DNA from: Candidatus Hydrogenedentota bacterium
GTDB lineage: Bacteria > Hydrogenedentota > Hydrogenedentia > Hydrogenedentales > CAITNO01
Length of the DNA: 34,631 nt
Reading direction: 5' to 3'
Assembly (NCBI GenBank): GCA_012730105.1
Contig: JAAYBJ010000049.1
Span: 1 to 34,631 of the forward strand
Made by a program: the position numbers and the translations under genes. This document shows, piece after piece, positions 3,136-30,029 of the stretch. The notes under the pieces are model-generated. The model was not told the origin of the DNA. It worked only from the letters and a program-made list of their open reading frames with translations, and did not search any database. Position 1 is the first letter of the stretch, and each line of letters starts with the position of its first letter.

Positions 3136-3141
3136 CCCGCG

Positions 3142-3186
3142 TCCTTTATGTCCTTTCGGTCCTTTCGGTCCTTTCGGTCCTTTCTT
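3142..3186. repeat. 9-bp tandem repeat TCCTTTCGG (five units) after the aldo/keto reductase gene
   Basis: Five consecutive 9-bp units start at 3142: TCCTTTATG, three exact TCCTTTCGG, then TCCTTTCTT. The array begins 6 bp after the stop codon. Related arrays of the same period and position relative to genes lie at 6517-6587 and 27014-27049. Confidence 0.9.
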
Positions 3187-3251: not shown

Positions 3252-6200
3252 ATGCAGGATAACGGGTATTTCGCGCATACAGGACGGTTATTCGCAACGG
3301 TGTTGTTTGTCGCCTTTACGATGTGGACCGTACCCGTTCGCGGTGAGGAGTGCCTTAACCCCGATGCGGTCTGCCGGGCGGTGGAGGATCTGCAGCGGAC
3401 CTTCGGCGTCGCCTATGCTGTCGGGTCGGACGGCTTGGCCGCGCTGCGAAATGCTCCGGAAAACGGGGACACTGCTGACAATCCCGCCATGAAAGCGTGG
3501 CGCGAACAGGCGCGGGCGGCGTTGCTGGCCAACCCGCTGCTTGACTTCGGTGCACTCCTGTTTATCCGGCGCGGTGCGGGGCAGCTCGGACTGCCCCAGA
3601 ACTGGGAAAGCAATTCCTCCCTGCCCCTGTCAGGTTTTGACAACGAGATCTGCCGGATGTTCCCGCGCGGAGATGGAACCCCACAGCGCGTGTATCGACC
3701 GGACAAGGACGTTTTCGCGGGAGACTTGGCGCTGCATTGGGACGCGGGCAGGCTCCTCTTTTCCATGCCCGGATCCAACGGGCGCTGGCAGGTCCATGAA
3801 CTGGATCTGGCCACAGGCCGGGCGCAAGAGGTGTCCCTGATTAACGAACCCGATGTGGACAACTACGAGGCCTGTTACCTCCCCGACGATAACCTCGTTT
3901 TCGCTTCCACCGCGCCCTTTGTCGGGGTGCCTTGTGTGACCGGTTCCTCCCATGTGTCCAATCTGTACCGGTATGACGTCGCCACGGGCGCGATACGGCG
4001 GCTGACCTTTGAACAGGACCATGACTGGTGTCCCCGGATACTTCCCAACGGACGCGTTCTGTACCTGCGCTGGGAATATTCCGATATTCCCCATTTCGCG
4101 TCCCGCATCCTGTTTCACATGAACCCGGACGGCACGGAGCAGATGGAATATTACGGCAGCAATTCCTACTGGCCGAACGCCATGTTTTATGCCCGGCCCT
4201 TGCCGGGAAGCGCCACCAAGGTGGTTACGATTGTCGGCGGCCATCACGGCGTGCCGCGCATGGGCGAGTTGGTGCTTCTCGATGCCGCCCACGGACGCCG
4301 GGAGGCGGACGGCGTTATCCAGCGCATCCCCGGTTACGGCAAGGCCGTGGAACCGGTGTTGCGGGACAACCTGGTGGATGATTCCTGGCCGAAGTTCCTG
4401 CATCCTTTCCCGCTCAGCGACACGTATTTTCTCGTTTCCTGCAAGCCGGGGCCCGAAGCGCTTTGGGGTCTGTATCTCGTGGATCGCTTTGACAACCGGG
4501 TCCTCCTGCGAGAAGAATCGGGCTACGCCCTTTTCGAGCCGATACCTTTGGCTGCCGTGCCCCGGCCCCCGGTCATTCCGGACCGCGTGGACCCCGGCCG
4601 CAACGATGCCGTGGTATTTCTGAGCGACATTTATGAAGGCGACGGGCTAAAGGGCGTGCCCCGGGGTACGGTCAAGCAATTGCGCCTGTTCACTTACCAC
4701 TTCGCTTATCACGGCATGGGCGGGCAGATTAACCGCGTGGGACTTGACGGTCCCTGGGACATCAAACGCGTGCTGGGCACCGTGCCCGTCGAGCCGGATG
4801 GCTCCGCCTTCTTCCGCGTGCCGGCGAATACGCCCGTGTCCGTCCAGCCCCTGGACGAAAAAGGCCAGGCCCTGCAACTGATGCGCAGCTGGATGACCGC
4901 CATGCCCGGCGAAACGCTCTCCTGTGTCGGCTGCCATGAACCGCAGAACACCCCGCCGCCCGTGCGCCCGAGCCTGGCGGCCCGACGCGCGCTCTCGGAC
5001 ATTGCGCCGTGGTACGGGCCCGAGCGGGGCTTCTCCTTCCGCCGCGAAGTGCAGCCCGTGCTGGACCGCTACTGTGTGCGCTGCCATGACGGCACGGATG
5101 TCGGTAAACCCGATTTCCGGGAGTTGCCCGACATACATACCACCGCCGAAGAACCCGCCTACAACAACGGCTCCCAGTTTCCGCCCGCCTATCTCGCCCT
5201 GCGCCGGTACGTGCGCGGCCACACCATGGAAAGTGACCTGCACCTGCTCATGCCCCTGGAGTTTCACGCCGGCACCACCGACCTGGTGCGCCACCTGCGC
5301 GGCGGACACCAGGGTATTATCCTCGACCCGGAATCCTGGGACCGCCTCATTACCTGGATTGACCTGAACACACCCGCCCACGGCACCTGGCATGAAATCG
5401 TCGGCACGGACAAGGTGGACCACCAGCGCCGGCGCCGCCTCGATATGCACGCCAAGTACGCCCTGGGCATCGGCGACGATCCCGAAACCATATATCATCT
5501 CACCCCGTATCAAGAGGGACTGTCCCTAACGAGCGACCGCAGGGAGCGAGACGGGACTGTCGATACCATCGATGTTAGCGATGCGAGCGATAGCGATAGC
5601 GATAGCGATAGCGATGCCGATACCGATACCGATACCGATACCGATGCCGATGCCGATACCGATGTCGATACCGATGTCGATACCGATGTCGATACCGATG
5701 TCGGACATAGCCTTGTCCCTGAAAAACGATCGATCGCGTTGGCTGATGGCATTCAACTCCACCTCGTCCGTGTGCCTGCCGGGCGCTATGTTTCGGATGC
5801 CGGTCCCGTGGAAATCGCGGAACCCTTCTGGATGGGCGCCACTGAAGTGACCAACGCCCAGTTTACCCTGTTCGACCTGGAACACGACAGCCGCCTGGAA
5901 CATGGTGATTTTCTGCAGTTCAGCACGGGAGAGCGGGGCTGGCCGCTGAACACCCCTGATCAACCCGTGGTGCGCGTTTCCTGGGAGCGGGCCCGGGCGT
6001 TCTGCGAATGGCTGGGCGCCGTCACCGGGGAGGCCTTCGACCTGCCCACCGAATCTCAATGGGAATACGCCTGCCGCGCTGGCGGCGATGCTCCGCTATG
6101 GTACGGCCCCCCGGAAATGGACTTCAGCCCCTTTGAGAACCTGGCGGACGCCTCCTTCCTGCGTGTGGAAACCCATGACCCGTGGAAGCTGCCCTCGGGC

Positions 6201-6494
6201 GCCATCCATCCCTGGCGCCTCGCTCGGGCTGAATTCAACGACGGGTACCGAGTCAGTGCGCCCGTGGGAAGCTTCGCGCCCAATCCCTTCGGCCTGCATG
6301 ACATGCTCGGAAACGCCGCCGAGTGGACGCGCGATGCCTGCACATCGGCGGAAGGCGGCCCTGCTGTCCGCACGGTACGCGGCGGGTCCTGGGCCGACCG
6401 GCCTGAAAAGGCCATCGCTCGGCGCCCCTACGCCACCTGGCAATCCGTTTACAACGTCGGCTTCCGTGTGGTCTGCCCGGCTGCGGACCGCTAA
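3252..6494 (+). CDS. Exported hydrazine-synthase-alpha-like propeller / di-haem cytochrome c / SUMF1-like fusion protein
   Basis: The 1080-residue product has a signal peptide (to about residue 30). Roughly residues 140-520 form a beta-propeller-like region (NGRWQVHELDLATGR, NLYRYDVATG, RILFHMNPDGTEQ) that resembles the middle domain of hydrazine synthase alpha, a module common in planctomycete-type genomes outside anammox. Two c-type haem sites follow, C558-VGC-H562 and C608-VRC-H612. After an odd acidic linker (about residues 756-818), residues 829-1078 are a SUMF1/formylglycine-generating-enzyme-like domain (MGATEVTNAQF, LPTESQWEYACRAGG, DMLGNAAEWTRD, RGGSWADR). The region after RGGSW lacks the paired cysteines of true formylglycine-generating enzyme, so I infer a binding role. 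The ribosome site is weak (GGTGGA). Likely a periplasmic electron-transfer or sensing protein; the substrate is unknown. No other anammox gene is present. Confidence 0.8.
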   Translation: MQDNGYFAHTGRLFATVLFVAFTMWTVPVRGEECLNPDAVCRAVEDLQRTFGVAYAVGSDGLAALRNAPENGDTADNPAMKAWREQARAALLANPLLDFGALLFIRRGAGQLGLPQNWESNSSLPLSGFDNEICRMFPRGDGTPQRVYRPDKDVFAGDLALHWDAGRLLFSMPGSNGRWQVHELDLATGRAQEVSLINEPDVDNYEACYLPDDNLVFASTAPFVGVPCVTGSSHVSNLYRYDVATGAIRRLTFEQDHDWCPRILPNGRVLYLRWEYSDIPHFASRILFHMNPDGTEQMEYYGSNSYWPNAMFYARPLPGSATKVVTIVGGHHGVPRMGELVLLDAAHGRREADGVIQRIPGYGKAVEPVLRDNLVDDSWPKFLHPFPLSDTYFLVSCKPGPEALWGLYLVDRFDNRVLLREESGYALFEPIPLAAVPRPPVIPDRVDPGRNDAVVFLSDIYEGDGLKGVPRGTVKQLRLFTYHFAYHGMGGQINRVGLDGPWDIKRVLGTVPVEPDGSAFFRVPANTPVSVQPLDEKGQALQLMRSWMTAMPGETLSCVGCHEPQNTPPPVRPSLAARRALSDIAPWYGPERGFSFRREVQPVLDRYCVRCHDGTDVGKPDFRELPDIHTTAEEPAYNNGSQFPPAYLALRRYVRGHTMESDLHLLMPLEFHAGTTDLVRHLRGGHQGIILDPESWDRLITWIDLNTPAHGTWHEIVGTDKVDHQRRRRLDMHAKYALGIGDDPETIYHLTPYQEGLSLTSDRRERDGTVDTIDVSDASDSDSDSDSDADTDTDTDTDADADTDVDTDVDTDVDTDVGHSLVPEKRSIALADGIQLHLVRVPAGRYVSDAGPVEIAEPFWMGATEVTNAQFTLFDLEHDSRLEHGDFLQFSTGERGWPLNTPDQPVVRVSWERARAFCEWLGAVTGEAFDLPTESQWEYACRAGGDAPLWYGPPEMDFSPFENLADASFLRVETHDPWKLPSGAIHPWRLARAEFNDGYRVSAPVGSFAPNPFGLHDMLGNAAEWTRDACTSAEGGPAVRTVRGGSWADRPEKAIARRPYATWQSVYNVGFRVVCPAADR
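5516..5561 (+). repeat. REP-like palindromic element inside a coding region
   Basis: GGGACTGTCCC (5516-5526, palindromic apart from its centre) is followed by the two GAGCGA-type repeats GAGCGACCGC and GGAGCGAGAC, and then GGGACTGTC (5553-5561). The segment reads in frame as part of the linker of the protein at 3252-6494. Its core AGCGA..G.AG.GAG and GGG.CTGTC end resemble the hairpin at 29683-29746, which suggests an inserted repetitive element that kept the frame open. Confidence 0.55.
5589..5702 (+). repeat. GATNNC hexanucleotide repeat encoding an Asp-X linker
   Basis: Nineteen uninterrupted 6-bp units of the form GATNNC (GATAGC x4, then GATGCC, GATACC and GATGTC variants) encode Asp-Ser, Asp-Ala, Asp-Thr and Asp-Val pairs, residues 780-817. 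The last eight units alternate GATACC and GATGTC, so the 12-bp pair was itself duplicated. This separates the cytochrome part from the SUMF1-like domain. Confidence 0.95.
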
Positions 6495-16214: not shown

Positions 16215-17354
16215 TTACCAGGGAAGTTTGATGAAACCACCACCACCGCCGCCTACACTCAGAACGATGCTGGCAATAATCAGGACCAGCAGGGCCAGAC
16301 CGCCCAGGAACAGGTTGGTGGGATCAAGCGGATCAAAGCCGTCGCAGCAGGCGCAGCGACCGGAGGAAATCACCAGGTCAACGGGAGAGAGTCCGATGGC
16401 AACCGCGCCTGCGGCGGGATCCTGGCTGATTACGCAGCCCTTGGGTATGTCATCACTGCATTCTTCCGTTACTGCGCCCACCACAAAGCAATTCGCGTTC
16501 AGGATTGCGGTGGCATCCGCAAGCGTTTCGCCCACGACGTCGGGCACTTCGAATTCACCGGTGCATTCAGGCTCGCCTTCCACAGGGGTTTCGCCTTCGC
16601 CCTCGACGGGTTCTTCGCCCTCGCCTTCGACGGGTTCTTCACCCTCGCCTTCGACGGGTTCTTCACCCTCGCCTTCGGGCAGTTCTTCGCCCTCGCCTTC
16701 AGGCAGTTCTTCACCTTCGCCTTCGGGCAGGACTTCACCTTCGCCTTCGGGCAGGACTTCACCTTCGCCTTCGGGTAGGACTTCGCCCTCGCCTTCGGGT
16801 AGGACTTCGCCCTCGCCTTCAGGCAGGACTTCACCTTCGCCTTCGGGCAGGACTTCACCTTCGCCTTCAGGCAGGATTTCGCCTTCACCTTCGGGCAGGA
16901 CTTCACCTTCGCCTTCGGGCAGGACTTCGCCTTCGCCCTCTACTACGACGGGGCACAGACCCAGGGGGTCGGTTACCGTTACGTTGAAGGTACATTCCGC
17001 AGGGCCTGATAAACCATCTGCCATGAGCACAATAAGCGGAACGGCTACTGGTTCGCCGATGTCGTCACAAGTGAACGTTGATTGTTCCACGGAAATTACA
17101 AACGCACTGGGATTGTTTTCATAGGCACCGGCACAATCCTGATACAGGTAAGTAATTGCTTCTGTGGAATAAAGCGCAGCGGCGGCGAAGACGCTGGCAA
17201 TACCGCTGTCATCCAATTCCACCGTGATGTCCTGGCAGGTTAATACCGGCGGGGCAGAGCTATCGCATTGTGACTGGGCATTGCCAGACAGCACAAGCCC
17301 CATAACGCACAGGCATGCGGTAAGCAGGAATGAATACTTTGAGTGTTGGTTCAT
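16215..17354 (-). CDS. Exported HYR-like / Glu-Gly stalk / PASTA / membrane-anchored surface protein
   Basis: The 379-residue product has a signal peptide (cleaved near residue 28), a beta-sandwich about 35-130 of HYR/Ig type (LTCQDITVELDDSG at the start, CTFNVTVTD at the end), 15 tandem copies of an 8-residue unit (144-263), a PASTA-like domain (VPDVVGETLADA, about 270-331), CACC, and a hydrophobic helix (about 348-367) ending GGGGGGFIKLPW. PASTA domains usually sit on penicillin-binding proteins or serine/threonine kinases and bind cell-wall fragments; here there is no kinase, which is unusual. I chose ATG 17354 because GGAGG lies 8 nt upstream. The gene has its own promoter and terminator, so it is a single-gene unit. 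Likely a wall- or membrane-attached spacer protein; its ligand is not known. Confidence 0.8.
   Translation of the reverse strand: MNQHSKYSFLLTACLCVMGLVLSGNAQSQCDSSAPPVLTCQDITVELDDSGIASVFAAAALYSTEAITYLYQDCAGAYENNPSAFVISVEQSTFTCDDIGEPVAVPLIVLMADGLSGPAECTFNVTVTDPLGLCPVVVEGEGEVLPEGEGEVLPEGEGEILPEGEGEVLPEGEGEVLPEGEGEVLPEGEGEVLPEGEGEVLPEGEGEVLPEGEGEELPEGEGEELPEGEGEEPVEGEGEEPVEGEGEEPVEGEGETPVEGEPECTGEFEVPDVVGETLADATAILNANCFVVGAVTEECSDDIPKGCVISQDPAAGAVAIGLSPVDLVISSGRCACCDGFDPLDPTNLFLGGLALLVLIIASIVLSVGGGGGGFIKLPW
16566..16925 (-). repeat. 24-bp tandem repeat encoding 15 copies of [VIE]LPEGEGE / EPVEGEGE
   Basis: Exactly 360 bp made of 15 units of 24 bp. The first nine (counted from the N-terminus) read VLPEGEGE or ILPEGEGE, two read ELPEGEGE, three EPVEGEGE, and the last TPVEGEPE. 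Grouping of identical variants shows stepwise local duplication. Confidence 0.95.
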
Positions 17355-20496: not shown

Positions 20497-23400
20497 ATGT
20501 TATGTTCTTCTTTCGTCTGCAAGCGGGCGGACAAAATGCATGTCGTTAGCGCGACACTCCTGTTTATTTGTTCCCTTTTACTGGCCGCGGTACCCTCTGC
20601 GCGGGCGGACCTGCTGGATGTCTATGAAAGCGATGGCATCTTGCGCGACCTCATCGTGCTGGAAGGGGACCTCGTGGAGATTAATACAGGCAGCAGTCCG
20701 CCTGTTTTCACGGTGGATGCATCCCCTATCGGGTACATCTACAAGGGGCGCGTAGTGGATGGAGCGGCCGTTTTTGATTTTGACGATGTATACATTGATC
20801 AAAGCATCAGTGTGTCCGTCCTTGGTAATCGTCCCTTGGTGATTTCGGCCAAGGGCGACATGACCGTGGGCGCTTCCTTTGATGTGTCCGCCGGTGTCGC
20901 GGGCGGCGGTTCGGGGGGCACGGGCGGACCTGCGGGCACAGGTGGCACGGGTGGTGCAGGCGGTGCGGGTGGTGCGGGTGGTGCGGGCGGTGTCGGCGGC
21001 GGCGGTGGCGATGCCAATCCCGCGTCCGCTCCGGGTGAAGACGGTGGTTTGGGCCTGGGTAGTGGCGCCGGACAGCCCGGGGAAGCTGGGTCTCCCGGTG
21101 GCGTAGCTTCCGGCACCGGCCAACGGGGTGGTTCCGGTTTTGGTAACCCTTTGGAATATGGCGGCGCGGGCGGCCAGTCCGGCCAGACGGGAGGTGCCGC
21201 GGGAACGGGCTCTACAATTGCCGGCGCGGCCCTGGGCGACAAAACGCGTGCGCTTTTGCTCGATGGACGCGGTGGTACGCTGGTTAACATCACATGGCCT
21301 GTGACCCTGACCTATGGTTTGCCCGGATCCGGAGGTAATGACGGCGATGACGGCGAGCCCGCGAGGACAGGCAATATTTTCAATTATGTGTATACCAACG
21401 CGACCGCTGGGGGTACGGGCGCTGTCGGATCTGCCGGTCAAGCGCCGGTATTCGCCGCTGACCCGTCCTCTCTGCTTCTTGCCGGTGGGCCTGGTGGCGG
21501 TGGCGGTGGTGGTGGCGCTGGCGGCGGCGGTGGTGGCGGCGGTGGTGGTGGCGGCGGCGGCCAAGGCGGTAACGGCGGCGGTGGCGGTGGCAGTACTGCT
21601 TTTGATAGTTTTACAATTTTGGGTATTTCTGTCCCGGCGATGGCTTTTGGTGGTGGTGGCGGCGGTGGTGCTGCCGGCGGCAGCACGGGTGTTGGTGGTG
21701 CTGGCGCTGGTGGTGGTGGCGGTGGCGGTATGTCTGGTGCCCCGGGCCAGCAGGGGGGCCAAGGTGGCTCTGCCGTTGGTAGCGCAGGACAGGCGGGCGG
21801 CGACGGGCAGTTGGATTTAGGCGGTTTTTTTGGCCAGGGCGGTGACCCGGGCACGGGCGGTGCGGGCGGCACCGGCGGCACCGGCGGCGCAGGTGGTGCA
21901 GGTGGCGCAGGTGGTCAGGGTGGTGTCGGTGCGGCTGGTGGCGGGTGTATTGTCCTCGCGGCGCGCGGACTTTTGGAGGTTAAAGAAGGGGCTCAATTTA
22001 ATATCTCCGCGGCGGTCCCGGGCACAGGCGCGGGTGGCGCTGCTGGCGGTGGTTCACGTACAGGCGCCGATGGCGATGATCCAAGCGCTGGCGGCGCGGG
22101 CGGCGCTTCCGGGGGCACCTTGTTTGAAGGTGCGATCCCGGGATGGCTTCTGGATATTCTCACCGGTGGTTCTGGCGGTTCGGGCGGTGATGGCGGCAGC
22201 GGCGGACGCGGCGGCGACAGTGCGACTGGTGGGACCGGCGGCGGCGGCGGCGCAGGCGGGTACGGCGCGCCGGGTATGGTAAAACTGGCGGGGTCCATTA
22301 TTCTGGTCGATCAGGCCGGTGCGGCGACGCCCCGGGTGGTCGCCAACAATGCCGGCGGTACCGCCCCTGAAAACAACGGCAAATTCAGCTTCATCTCCAA
22401 TATGACGGCTGCGGCGCGTGCGGCAAACCAGCCAGCCTTCAGCACCGCGAATGTCGCTAAAGGCTTTAATGCTTATGATGATTTCCTGAAGGCCTTTAAC
22501 GCCTATGTTTTCCTGGAAACACCGTTGATTCCGAATCTGCTCGGCGGTCCTGCCCAGCACGGCTGGTGTCTGGAGAATTACTGGAATCAGACGGAAGTCG
22601 AAGCGTTGGCGCCATCGGGCACCTTTGGCGACGTTACCTACTGGCAGTTCCCAAGTATTTTTGAGGGCTTCGACCAACTGGTGATCAAAAACACCGGTGG
22701 ACAAAGCACAATCCGTGACCTCACGCTTACTGTCGGCGACAACAATCCGAGGCTTATCCGCGGTAACGGCGGCGTGCCCGGAGAATTGCCTCCCTTGGCT
22801 TCCTGGACCACTACGGTGCCTGCCGGCGCGGCAGTTTTGATCAACGCCGAGGGCGAAGGTGCCGGAGAAGAGGGCAGCTTCTACGTCAGCGATGGCACCC
22901 TGGGCGACTTGATTGCCAACAGCGGCACGATTACTATTGATACGGGTGACCTGGGCGGCGGCCCGGGCACGCTTACCTTTGGTGGCAACACCTATGAAGC
23001 GCGCACGGATCTCCGGTATGACACCGGTCAGGAAGTGGCCGTCTTTGAGTTCGAAAACATTACCGTGGCCAGCGGGGTGACGGTTAACGTTATTGGCAAT
23101 AGGCCGCTGTCGCTTGCCGCGCGCAGTGATATCAATTGGGCGGCGGATGTGACCGTTCCCGCCGGTACGCTTGGTGGTGGTGCGGGCGGTACAGGGGGTG
23201 TAGGCGGTGTAGCGGGCACGGGCGGCACGGGTGGCACGGGCGGCACAGGTGGTGCTGGTGGCGGCGGTGGCCGCGGCGGCGGCGCGGATACCATCCGGGG
23301 CGCCCAGGGTAACGGTGAGCACGGTTTCCCGGGCTTGGCAGGCATTGCAGGCAATGCCGGCAGTCCTGGAGCAGGGGGAGAGCCAGGTGCCGACGGGACC

Positions 23401-26400
23401 CCCGGTAGCGTGGGCTTTGGTCTTGCCAGCACTCGCGGTAACGGTGGTTCGGGTGGTCCCGGCGGTGATGCTGGTACAGCCGGTGCGGCCGGCACGGCCG
23501 GTGGACAGGCGGCTGGCGGTTTGGGCAAAGATGTAACCGAGGGTATTGCAAACAAGTATGGTGAGGACGGCACATCAAATGCAGGTGTAACCCCGGCAGC
23601 AGCGGGTGCGGGCGGCACTGGTGGCACAGCGCTTGCCGGTGATAATGCCGCCTACACGGATATATCTATTTTCGCATCTGGACTGGGTCTTGCGGCCGGT
23701 TCTGGTGGTGGTGGCGGTGGCGGCGGTGGCGGTGGCGGCGGCGGTGGCGGCGGTGGCGGTGGCGGCGGCGGTTCCGGCGGTTCCGGCGGCGGCGGTGGCG
23801 CAGGTGGCCAGTTTGACGGCGTATTTGGTGTGGGTGCCTATCGTGCGGCCGGTGGTGGAGGAGGTGGTTATACGGCTGGCGGCGGGGGTACGGCTGCATC
23901 GGGCACCACGTGGACGCCTTCACCCGCAGGTGGTGGCGCGGGTGCTTTGGGTGGTGGCGGCGGTACGGGCGGTACGGGCCGTCCCGGCGGCGGTGGTGGT
24001 GCAGGTGGTACGGGTGCGGCCGGTGGCGGAGCCTTTGTCCTTTCCGCGCGCGGTTTGTTAAATATTGCGAGTTCCTGCACCTTTAGTGTGGATGCGGGGG
24101 CGCGGGCCAGCGGTTCAGCCGGAACTGGTCAGGGCACTTCTCCTCAGGGACCGACCTCCGGTTCTGACGGTCTTGCCGGTGCCGATGGTGGTGCGGGAGC
24201 AGGCCTGTTAGGCTTGGGCATTCTCTCCGGTAATGGCGGCGCAGGCGGTGATGGTGGTTCCGGTGGAGGTGGTGGCGCCGGCGGTAGTGGCGGCGCGGGT
24301 AGCGCGGGCGCTGGCGGCGGCTATGGCGTGCCGGGCATGGTGAAACTGCATGGTTCCGTTGTGTTGGCCGGAGGTGCTCAGGTAAGCGCCGGCAATGTGG
24401 CCGGCTCGGATCCGAATCAAAACGGCGCGGTGACGGTCATTTCCAACATGACTTCCGCTTCGTTGACGCCCAATCTGCCGCAGGCGGCCACGGCAAGCCT
24501 GGTGCAGGGCATCACGACCCACGTGCCCTATCTTACGGCATTCAATCCGTTGATTGGTGCCCGTACGCCGATCATTCCGAACTTGGTGTCCGGTGCCGCC
24601 ACGCGTGGTTGGTGCCTGCCCGGATACTGGAATGACGGGGATGAGAATCCCGTCTTTACAACGGAAAACGACCTCGAGTTCCGGGTCTTCCGCATGGTGG
24701 ACGGCACCTCCGTATTCGAGGGCTTTGACCAGGTGGTGATCCGGAATACCAACAGTTCCGGACAGATCGAAGATGTGACCATCATCGTCGGCGCGAACCC
24801 GGCGGTGCCGATTGACGGCGATGGCGGCACGGCGGGCATCCTGGCGGCCGGTCAAACGTGGACAACCTGTGTCCCGGCCGGCGCCTATATCTCCGTGCCC
24901 GGCGCCAGCGGCACCGGACCCGGCGACGGGCCTGTGGCCTTGTTCAGCGCCTCGCCAATCTCCGGTCCCTATAACCTGGCGGTAGAATTCTTTGACCAGT
25001 CCCTGACGGGCGCGCAGCCCATTCATACTTGGGAGTGGCTCTTTGGCGATGGTGGCAGCAGCAACGACCAGAATCCGGTGCATACCTATACGGCGCCCGG
25101 TGTCTATACGGTCTCTTTGAGTGTTACGTCTGACATCGGTACCAATATTCTGACGAAGGAAGGCTACATCGTCGTCACGGAGCCGGTGGGCCCGATGGCG
25201 GATTTCTCCGGCGGCCCCACCAGCATACTGACAGGTGAGACCGTATTCTTCGGGGATGCCTCCGTGCCGGGGACGGCTCAGATTACCTCGTGGGCATGGA
25301 CCTTTGGCGATGGCGGAACCAGCGCGCTCAAGAGTCCTTCCCATGCCTATATGGCGCCCGGGGTTTACGATGTGTCCCTGACCGTGACAACCAGCATCGG
25401 TTCGGACACCAAGGCGGTCACCGGCTATGTGGTGGTATCCGCTCCGCCCGATCCGGTGCCGCCCGTGGCGGACTTTACCGCATGGCCGACCGAGATCATG
25501 ATCGGCCAAAGCGTCCAGTTTGCGGATATGTCCATGCCCGGTTCCGCGCCGATCGCGGAATGGATATGGGACTTCGGCGATACCCAGGGCGGTGTGGGAC
25601 AGGCCCCGGTTCACACCTATAATTCGCCGGGCTTGTACACGGTCGCCCTGACGGTGAATTCGGCCAGCGGCAACAACACGCTCGTCAAGGAAGCATATGT
25701 GCATGTGACGGCGCCCGGCGGGCCTACCGCCAATTTCATGGGCGTGCCCAACATCGGCACGAGCCCGCTGACCGTTGCGTTCACCGATATGTCACTACCG
25801 GGTGATGAGCCCATTACCGGGTGGCTGTGGGAGTTCGGCGACGGTGGCAGCAGTACGGACCCCGCGCCGGTCTATACCTACCTCAACGCGGGTGTGTACA
25901 CCGTGTCTCTGACGGTAACGACGATCGCTGGCGGTGATCAGCGCATTCGTGACAATTACATCACCGTCAATGCGCCTAAAGGGCCGACGGCTGAGTTTAC
26001 CGCCGTGCCTACCGGCGGACTGGAACCGCTCACGGTTCAATTCGTCGACTTGTCGCTTCCCGGCGACAGGCCCATTACCGCCTGGCAGTGGAACTTTGGC
26101 GACGGCGGCACCAGTGCGGAACCTTCGCCGGCCCATGTCTACAACAATGCCGGCACGTATACGGTCCAGCTCACTGTTACCACGGAAGTGGGCAGTGATG
26201 ATGTTATCGCCGCCAATTTAATCAATGTAACGACGCCGGGCGGGCCGACCGCAGACTTCACCGGCTATCCCGCCTCGGGCCACGCGCCGCTGACCGTGCA
26301 GTTTGCCAGCCAGTCTCAGGCCGGCGATACGCCGATCACCAGTTGGGCCTGGGACTTCGGGGATGGCGCGACCAGCACGGAACAGGCTCCGATACATGAG

Positions 26401-29682: not shown

Positions 29683-29746
29683 GTTCGGAAGGCAGGGATT
29701 GACCCCAGCGAATGTAGTGAGCCGGGTCTGTCCCTGACTTCCGAAC
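29683..29746. repeat. 64-bp REP-like hairpin element
   Basis: GTTCGGAAG-G-CAGGGA at the left pairs with TCCCTG-A-CTTCCGAAC at the right, and inside them GACCC pairs with GGGTC. The loop carries AGCGAATGTAGTGAG. The overall form matches bacterial interspersed palindromes. Similar core at 5516-5561. Confidence 0.75.
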
Positions 29747-29843
29747 GAACCCATTTTCATTGTTTCTGGTGGAGCCACAAGGCTCATAAGGAACTGTGGA
29801 GTCGTTGAAAAAACCGACTAAACATAAAACACAAGAGAAAAAC

Positions 29844-29886
29844 GGGACTGACGCAAGAATTTACGCAGTAAATTCGGGTCTGTCCC
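29844..29886. repeat. 43-bp nested hairpin element
   Basis: Outer arms GGGAC (29844-29848) and GTCCC (29882-29886); inner perfect arms AATTTAC (29858-29864) and GTAAATT (29868-29874) around GCA. It shares CGGGTCTGTCCC with the element at 29683-29746 and GACGCAAGAAT with the region at 26968. Confidence 0.75.
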
Positions 29887-30029
29887 ACAGTTTTTCGCGC
29901 GAGATGTACAAGAAGGGGACTTTTTCAATACCTTCACTGTCCCAGCTTTCACGGTACGGATACAAAACCATAATAGTAGATGCGGCCGGGCTGTTACAAA
30001 ATCAGATGAACCCTGTGCTCGTCCGATAC

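Follow-up and report, generated by a model that had tools for sequence, protein, structure and literature searches.

The gene analyzed here occupies positions 3252..6494 of the window, the whole 34,631-nucleotide stretch of DNA, which comes from a 343-contig MAG of a Candidatus Hydrogenedentota bacterium; the gene, its domains and linker repeats, and the two other hairpin copies of the window are on the plus strand. The ORF encodes a protein of 1080 amino acids, as supported by Pfam matches (PF18582 and PF03781) and an AlphaFold2 model. In this protein, an N-terminal hydrophobic segment is followed by a beta-rich and di-haem region containing an HZS_alpha domain, then by a linker and a SUMF1/FGE-like domain. 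Residues 11-23 are helical in the model and likely form an N-terminal membrane or signal helix. The HZS_alpha middle domain (residues 472-563, 4665..4940; Pfam E=3.9e-33) is accompanied by two CXXCH haem motifs recognizable in the sequence, CVGCH starting at residue 558 (4923..4937) and CVRCH starting at residue 608 (5073..5087), and the C-terminal part of the protein is an FGE-sulfatase (SUMF1-like) domain (residues 853-1074, 5808..6473; Pfam E=4.4e-34). The interdomain linker (residues 754-820, 5511..5711) was delineated from the AlphaFold2 model, which was built with a 30-sequence homologue alignment, and from the variable length and sequence of the corresponding region in 92 linkers. In the model, the cytochrome part is well resolved and the FGE part only partly, whereas residues 754-820 have pLDDT values below 50 and no secondary structure. 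With 24 Asp among 72 residues, the product of the linker is best seen as an acidic Asp-X spacer that is predicted to be disordered.

The linker DNA carries two nearly adjacent repeats, both in frame with the ORF. The DNA from position 5515 reads AGGGACTGTCCCTAACGAGCGACCGCAGGGAGCGAGACGGGACTGTC and starts with a REP-like hairpin element of a long-loop subfamily (5515..5564), assigned by a covariance model and by identity to genomic copies and translated as GLSLTSDRRERDGTV. The arms of the palindrome are GGGACTGTCCC at 5516-5526 and GGGACTGTC at 5553-5561, for an overall length of 46 bp. A degenerate, GATNNC-like lead-in of 27 bp, GATACCATCGATGTTAGCGATGCGAGC (5562..5588), connects the hairpin to 19 perfect GATNNC units (5589..5702) coding for (Asp-Ser/Ala/Thr/Val)n. 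The palindrome and the 19 in-frame units had been noticed in the sequence-only reading of this DNA, with coordinates and counts that proved correct. The short sequences GTATC (5507) and GATAC (5562) flank the element and could be a target or a remnant of an outer arm; they are short enough to have arisen by chance.

The hairpin belongs to a family that is dispersed in the genome. Covariance model R1, built from 12 genomic copies with the linker copy left out, detects 39 sites across this genome at E<=1, of which 30 are at E<0.003, the linker copy included. The linker copy itself is retrieved at E=1e-6 genome-wide by this model, which contains only other genomic copies, and is identical to an intergenic copy on contig C253 at 41 of 50 positions. 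The aligned genomic copies share the pattern AGGGACTGWCCC-(A/C)AGCGAGCG.AGCGAGAC-GGGWCTGTCCCT. Family membership becomes visible only with the full element: taken by itself, the 9-mer GGGACTGTC occurs 48 times in the genome, barely more often than a reversed control (39). In the linker copy, the 3' arm is broken, with GTCGAT vs GTCCCT in other copies, and the distal CCCT is replaced by GATA; because of this loss, the hairpin of the linker copy taken alone no longer folds significantly (z -1.0). The window harbors one further intergenic copy at 29694..29735 (R1 E=1.7e-13; one of the 12 used to build the model) and a weaker, diverged intergenic copy at 29843..29887 (R1 E=0.005 genome-wide). Among the relatives, 32 of the 60 searched have R1 matches; two of the three congeners contain 20 and 17 matches, respectively, and the third has none.

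The structure of the family is maintained across its copies. Among 62 distinct sequences, 92.9% of the cells in the 12-position arms are paired. A clear compensatory change is seen at pair 9/109, where 32 sequences have A-U and the other 30 have U-A, without a single failure; covariation is 0.154 vs 0.072 in shuffled alignments (0/500). The arms of the outer stem differ between copies yet pair within each copy, with a mean score of 6.4 compared with 3.7 +- 0.2 for shuffled partners. In all family copies (L288-L340), the conserved core hairpin is flanked by such copy-specific arms, which gives the impression that the element inserts within local hairpins or duplicates them.

Most copies of the family are non-coding: 46 of the 53 examined lack a strong ORF across them, and the sampled copies are nearly all intergenic, with ORFs near repeats called by a simple codon score rather than a gene finder. 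Apart from the linker gene, in-frame copies were detected in at least three other genes with Pfam support. A TPR protein of genome G003 contains a family copy in frame, whereas genome G015 carries two tandem in-frame copies in a nucleoside hydrolase and another two in an FGE-domain protein; in the latter, the peptide GLTQASDQRERDGSVPV matches GLSLTSDRRERDGTV of the window in reading frame. Two genic copies are less certain: one in the own genome, which lies next to a Peptidase_C13 match, and one in genome G036, within a PKD protein.

These properties invite comparison with two kinds of known repeats. Intragenic REPs, with the GTAG/CGTC tetranucleotides, have been described in several species, a verrucomicrobium among them (PMC3733652). 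The family described here resembles them as a small, imperfect palindrome that can fold into a hairpin, multi-copy, dispersed and mostly intergenic, with some in-frame copies, single or in tandem, in a genome that also encodes Y1_Tnp proteins. It differs from REPs in that its outer stem arms vary by copy and in that tens rather than hundreds of copies were found; a terminal GTAG tag was not seen, GTAG being absent from the consensus, and CGTC is confined to the reverse strand, at the edge of the loop. Ten Y1_Tnp matches were found in the own genome, and related Y1 genes lie about 150 bp from an element copy on contigs C32 and C93 only, that is, at 2 of about 60 fetched loci. Together, the hairpin family and the Y1_Tnp genes present the picture that is usual for REP elements; this is not proof of mobility, and the family is putatively mobile. 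The second comparison is with Rickettsia palindromic elements (RPE; Ogata et al.), palindromes that are found in frame in protein genes (reviewed in PMC10969869). As with RPEs, a dispersed palindrome has entered unrelated protein genes without disturbing their reading frame and survives there as additional peptide sequence, with other copies in intergenic regions. The hairpin described here, though, is about 50 bp long compared with about 150 bp for RPEs, is read in several frames, is intergenic in most of its copies, and in the window is joined to a GATNNC array in a linker that unrelated repeats have colonized as well. The likeness to RPEs considered here is one of habit.

The GATNNC repeats are similarly dispersed. 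A pattern of six GATNNC units gives 97 overlapping matches in the own genome and none in the reversed control; the three congeners lack it, and G036, which belongs to another family, has 84 matches. Beyond the window array, the own genome contains eleven further arrays with 158 units, apparently all non-coding. In these arrays, GAT and the final C are fixed (entropy 0.10-0.23 bits), and positions 4 and 5 are free (1.3-1.4 bits); the array in the linker follows this division into four fixed and two free positions. Accordingly, all 19 of its Asp codons are GAT, compared with 24 of the 74 elsewhere in the gene, where 50 are GAC (chance 5e-10), and the second codon of every unit ends in C. Given that the same pattern holds in arrays that lack coding support, the linker apparently owes its codon choice to the DNA rather than to selection on the protein. 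Four of the six frames of GATNNC are stop-free under the genetic code whatever the free bases, and six is a multiple of three, so an array of this kind can grow inside a gene.

A second coding array was considered on contig C57 and rejected. It lies in a 491-residue frame that has no Pfam match, and judging from the translation the array appears to be situated upstream of a later gene; it was therefore treated as non-coding. Two array-bearing frames of the own genome were tested against Pfam, and neither gave a match. GATNNC arrays are abundant in the own genome (G000) and in G036, which represent different families (loci L168-L187), and several arrays of G036 share similar flanks. In the own genome, the arrays on contigs C59, C78 and C176 are located at or near contig ends, so that the true arrays may be longer than assembled; likewise, given the 343-contig MAG, the length of the window array may be a product of assembly.

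Orthologue searches recovered the two-domain fusion in 99 open frames with 92 distinct linkers. Nearly every orthologue examined has the fusion, and the genomes concerned carry the labels Hydrogenedentota, Planctomycetota, Armatimonadota, Verrucomicrobiota, and Lentisphaerae; the fusion is also shared by three paralogues in the own genome that have ordinary linkers. Across the 92 linkers, neither length nor sequence is conserved, and the hairpin element is absent from almost all orthologues of the fusion. The closest orthologue, from G002, is 82% identical in the cytochrome anchor; its linker is 38 residues long vs 72 here and contains neither the hairpin element nor an Asp-X run. No acidic linker was found in any of the orthologues or paralogues compared. 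When the linker with its flanks was compared with the own genome using BLAST, strong repeat matches were confined to the two repeat segments. Thus, the fusion is old and the repeats came later; given that the orthologues, including the closest one, have ordinary unrelated linkers, the capture of the repeats is recent. The sequence-only reading had proposed such recent recruitment of repetitive DNA as a protein linker, making it depend on further genomic copies of the palindrome and on linkers that are not conserved among orthologues, and this part of its interpretation holds up on both counts.

We traced several cases of repeat uptake at the same position in other lineages. Each linker, with its flanks, was searched against the genome it came from. 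In G026, the linker contains two distinct dispersed repeats that together have dozens of genomic copies, and in G016, a single repeat with more than 40 copies. In a Phycisphaerales genome (L265), the linker holds two inverted copies of a repeat that recurs dozens of times, and in a Planctomycetota genome (L206), it contains heptad arrays of a kind that occurs at about 18 other sites. In all four cases, the flanking parts of the gene match mainly homologous genes. These linkers were picked by eye from the translated sequences, so that four positives out of four give no capture rate. Across the whole set, inverted repeats scoring >=10 occur in 7 of 92 linkers vs 32 of 2213 windows of the same length from the same genes (p=7e-4), and short tandem periodicity >=0.65 in 4 of 91 linkers, the window's own being excluded, vs 5 of 2213 windows (p=2.5e-4). 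Because unrelated dispersed repeats occupy the same linker in other lineages, the site appears to be a general sink rather than the scene of a unique accident.

Taken together, these observations make it highly probable that a permissive interdomain linker has been repeatedly colonized by intergenic repeats and that, in the present case, an acidic Asp-X spacer resulted. Under this scenario, an ancient protein combining a di-haem cytochrome/HZS-alpha part with a SUMF1-like domain would have possessed an unstructured interdomain linker that need only stay open and flexible, and insertions would therefore have been tolerated. A copy of the dispersed REP-like hairpin, identified by its family membership and its absence from orthologues, would have landed in this linker in frame, perhaps moved by a Y1/HUH transposase. 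The GATNNC array directly behind the hairpin begins at the broken 3' arm and belongs to the same repeat class as the intergenic arrays; it might have grown by slippage or unequal recombination, or might have been copied from another array. The outcome would be a long, acidic, disordered Asp-X spacer.

Several other explanations have to be weighed against this one. Selection at the protein level for an acidic Asp-X spacer, comparable to those of the staphylococcal Sdr/Clf proteins, would make the DNA repetition a by-product and the link to intergenic repeats incidental. Asp-X linkers are plausible functional spacers, and the segment weakly matches the SdrC, SdrD, ClfA, and ClfB models, although these NCBIfam matches are far below the cut-off and confined to the Asp-X stretch. 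Like the serine-aspartate repeat spacers of Sdr/Clf proteins (PMC3324548), the linker is an acidic run of Asp-X dipeptides, encoded by short repeats that come in multiples of three. There is, however, no homology beyond composition; Pfam shows only HZS_alpha and FGE, with neither an adhesin A-domain nor a wall anchor, so this is not a wall-anchored adhesin, and the repeat occurs here also as non-coding arrays genome-wide. The role of the spacer may be likened to that of Sdr-type spacers, though the protein is not a member of the Sdr family. Selection is an unlikely cause of the repeat, considering the invariant GAT and C-ending codons in a gene that otherwise prefers GAC, the identical pattern of fixed and free positions in arrays that lack coding support, the absence of an acidic linker in the orthologues and paralogues, and the adjoining hairpin, which needs an explanation at the DNA level regardless.

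The near adjacency of the hairpin and the array in the window could mean that they form one composite mobile element that arrived in a single insertion, but this is decidedly improbable, given that no other adjacent pair was found in the own genome, where the closest, on contig C328, lie about 6 kb apart. A repeat-driven misjoin inside the gene deserves consideration in a MAG of 343 contigs, in which the GATNNC arrays at contig ends indicate that such arrays trouble the assembler. Yet the sequences on either side come from one conserved gene, correctly ordered and in frame without a stop codon, and repeats occupy this linker in independent assemblies as well, so an artefact of this kind is very improbable. 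The position of the repeats exactly between the two domains also led the sequence-only reading to suggest that they mark the site where two genes fused, which would make the linker the point of a repeat-mediated recombination. The part of its interpretation that concerned the fusion site fails, in that the same fusion spans several phyla and the paralogues of the own genome, almost always without the element; this distribution rules out the element as the cause of the fusion, and repeat-mediated fusion has next to no plausibility.

The colonization of a permissive linker by intergenic repeats bears on more than this one gene. Repeats within genes are usually treated as single cases, for example, the RPEs of Rickettsia, whereas here a single linker of an old, widespread fusion independently took up at least five unrelated repeat classes across lineages. 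Hence, it becomes directly testable, by scanning the linkers of one genome after another, how dispersed non-coding repeats are linked to new protein sequence without structure. The analysis adds a new hairpin family with an in-frame habit in Hydrogenedentota and shows it combined with an array of semi-degenerate hexamers. It also adds the case of a single interdomain linker that repeats of unrelated kinds have occupied again and again in several lineages.

The arrays themselves might have a significance of their own. The patchily distributed GATNNC class keeps about four positions fixed and two variable even in non-coding DNA, a pattern that is not obviously explained by slippage. Tentatively, and with more doubt than confidence, the GATNNC arrays, along with the similar semi-degenerate heptads in linkers of other phyla, could be considered a distinct repeat class that depends on an unknown array-forming or array-reading mechanism rather than on plain slippage; linkers would then be one of the places where such arrays persist. 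Like the prokaryotic satellites and microsatellites covered in the consulted part of PMC6749651, the GATNNC repeats are short, tandem, scattered through the genome, and species-specific; they differ in holding four positions fixed and two free, and that part of the source mentions no such class. A literature search with a reach outside subscription journals returned no description of degenerate hexamer or CGATAC tandem arrays, and the one paper found for Hydrogenedentes and palindromes has a title that does not concern repeats.

Semi-degenerate heptad arrays were seen in the linkers of orthologues L201, L206, L228, and L233, from Planctomycetota, Verrucomicrobiota, and Armatimonadota records, and are possible cousins of GATNNC. 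The window contains several other tandem repeats: GAAGGT at the contig start (1-65), GTCCTTTCG at 3141-3184, downstream of an aldo/keto reductase gene, a 24-bp array at 16572-16937, and Gly-type GGTGGC repeats at 20941-24296.
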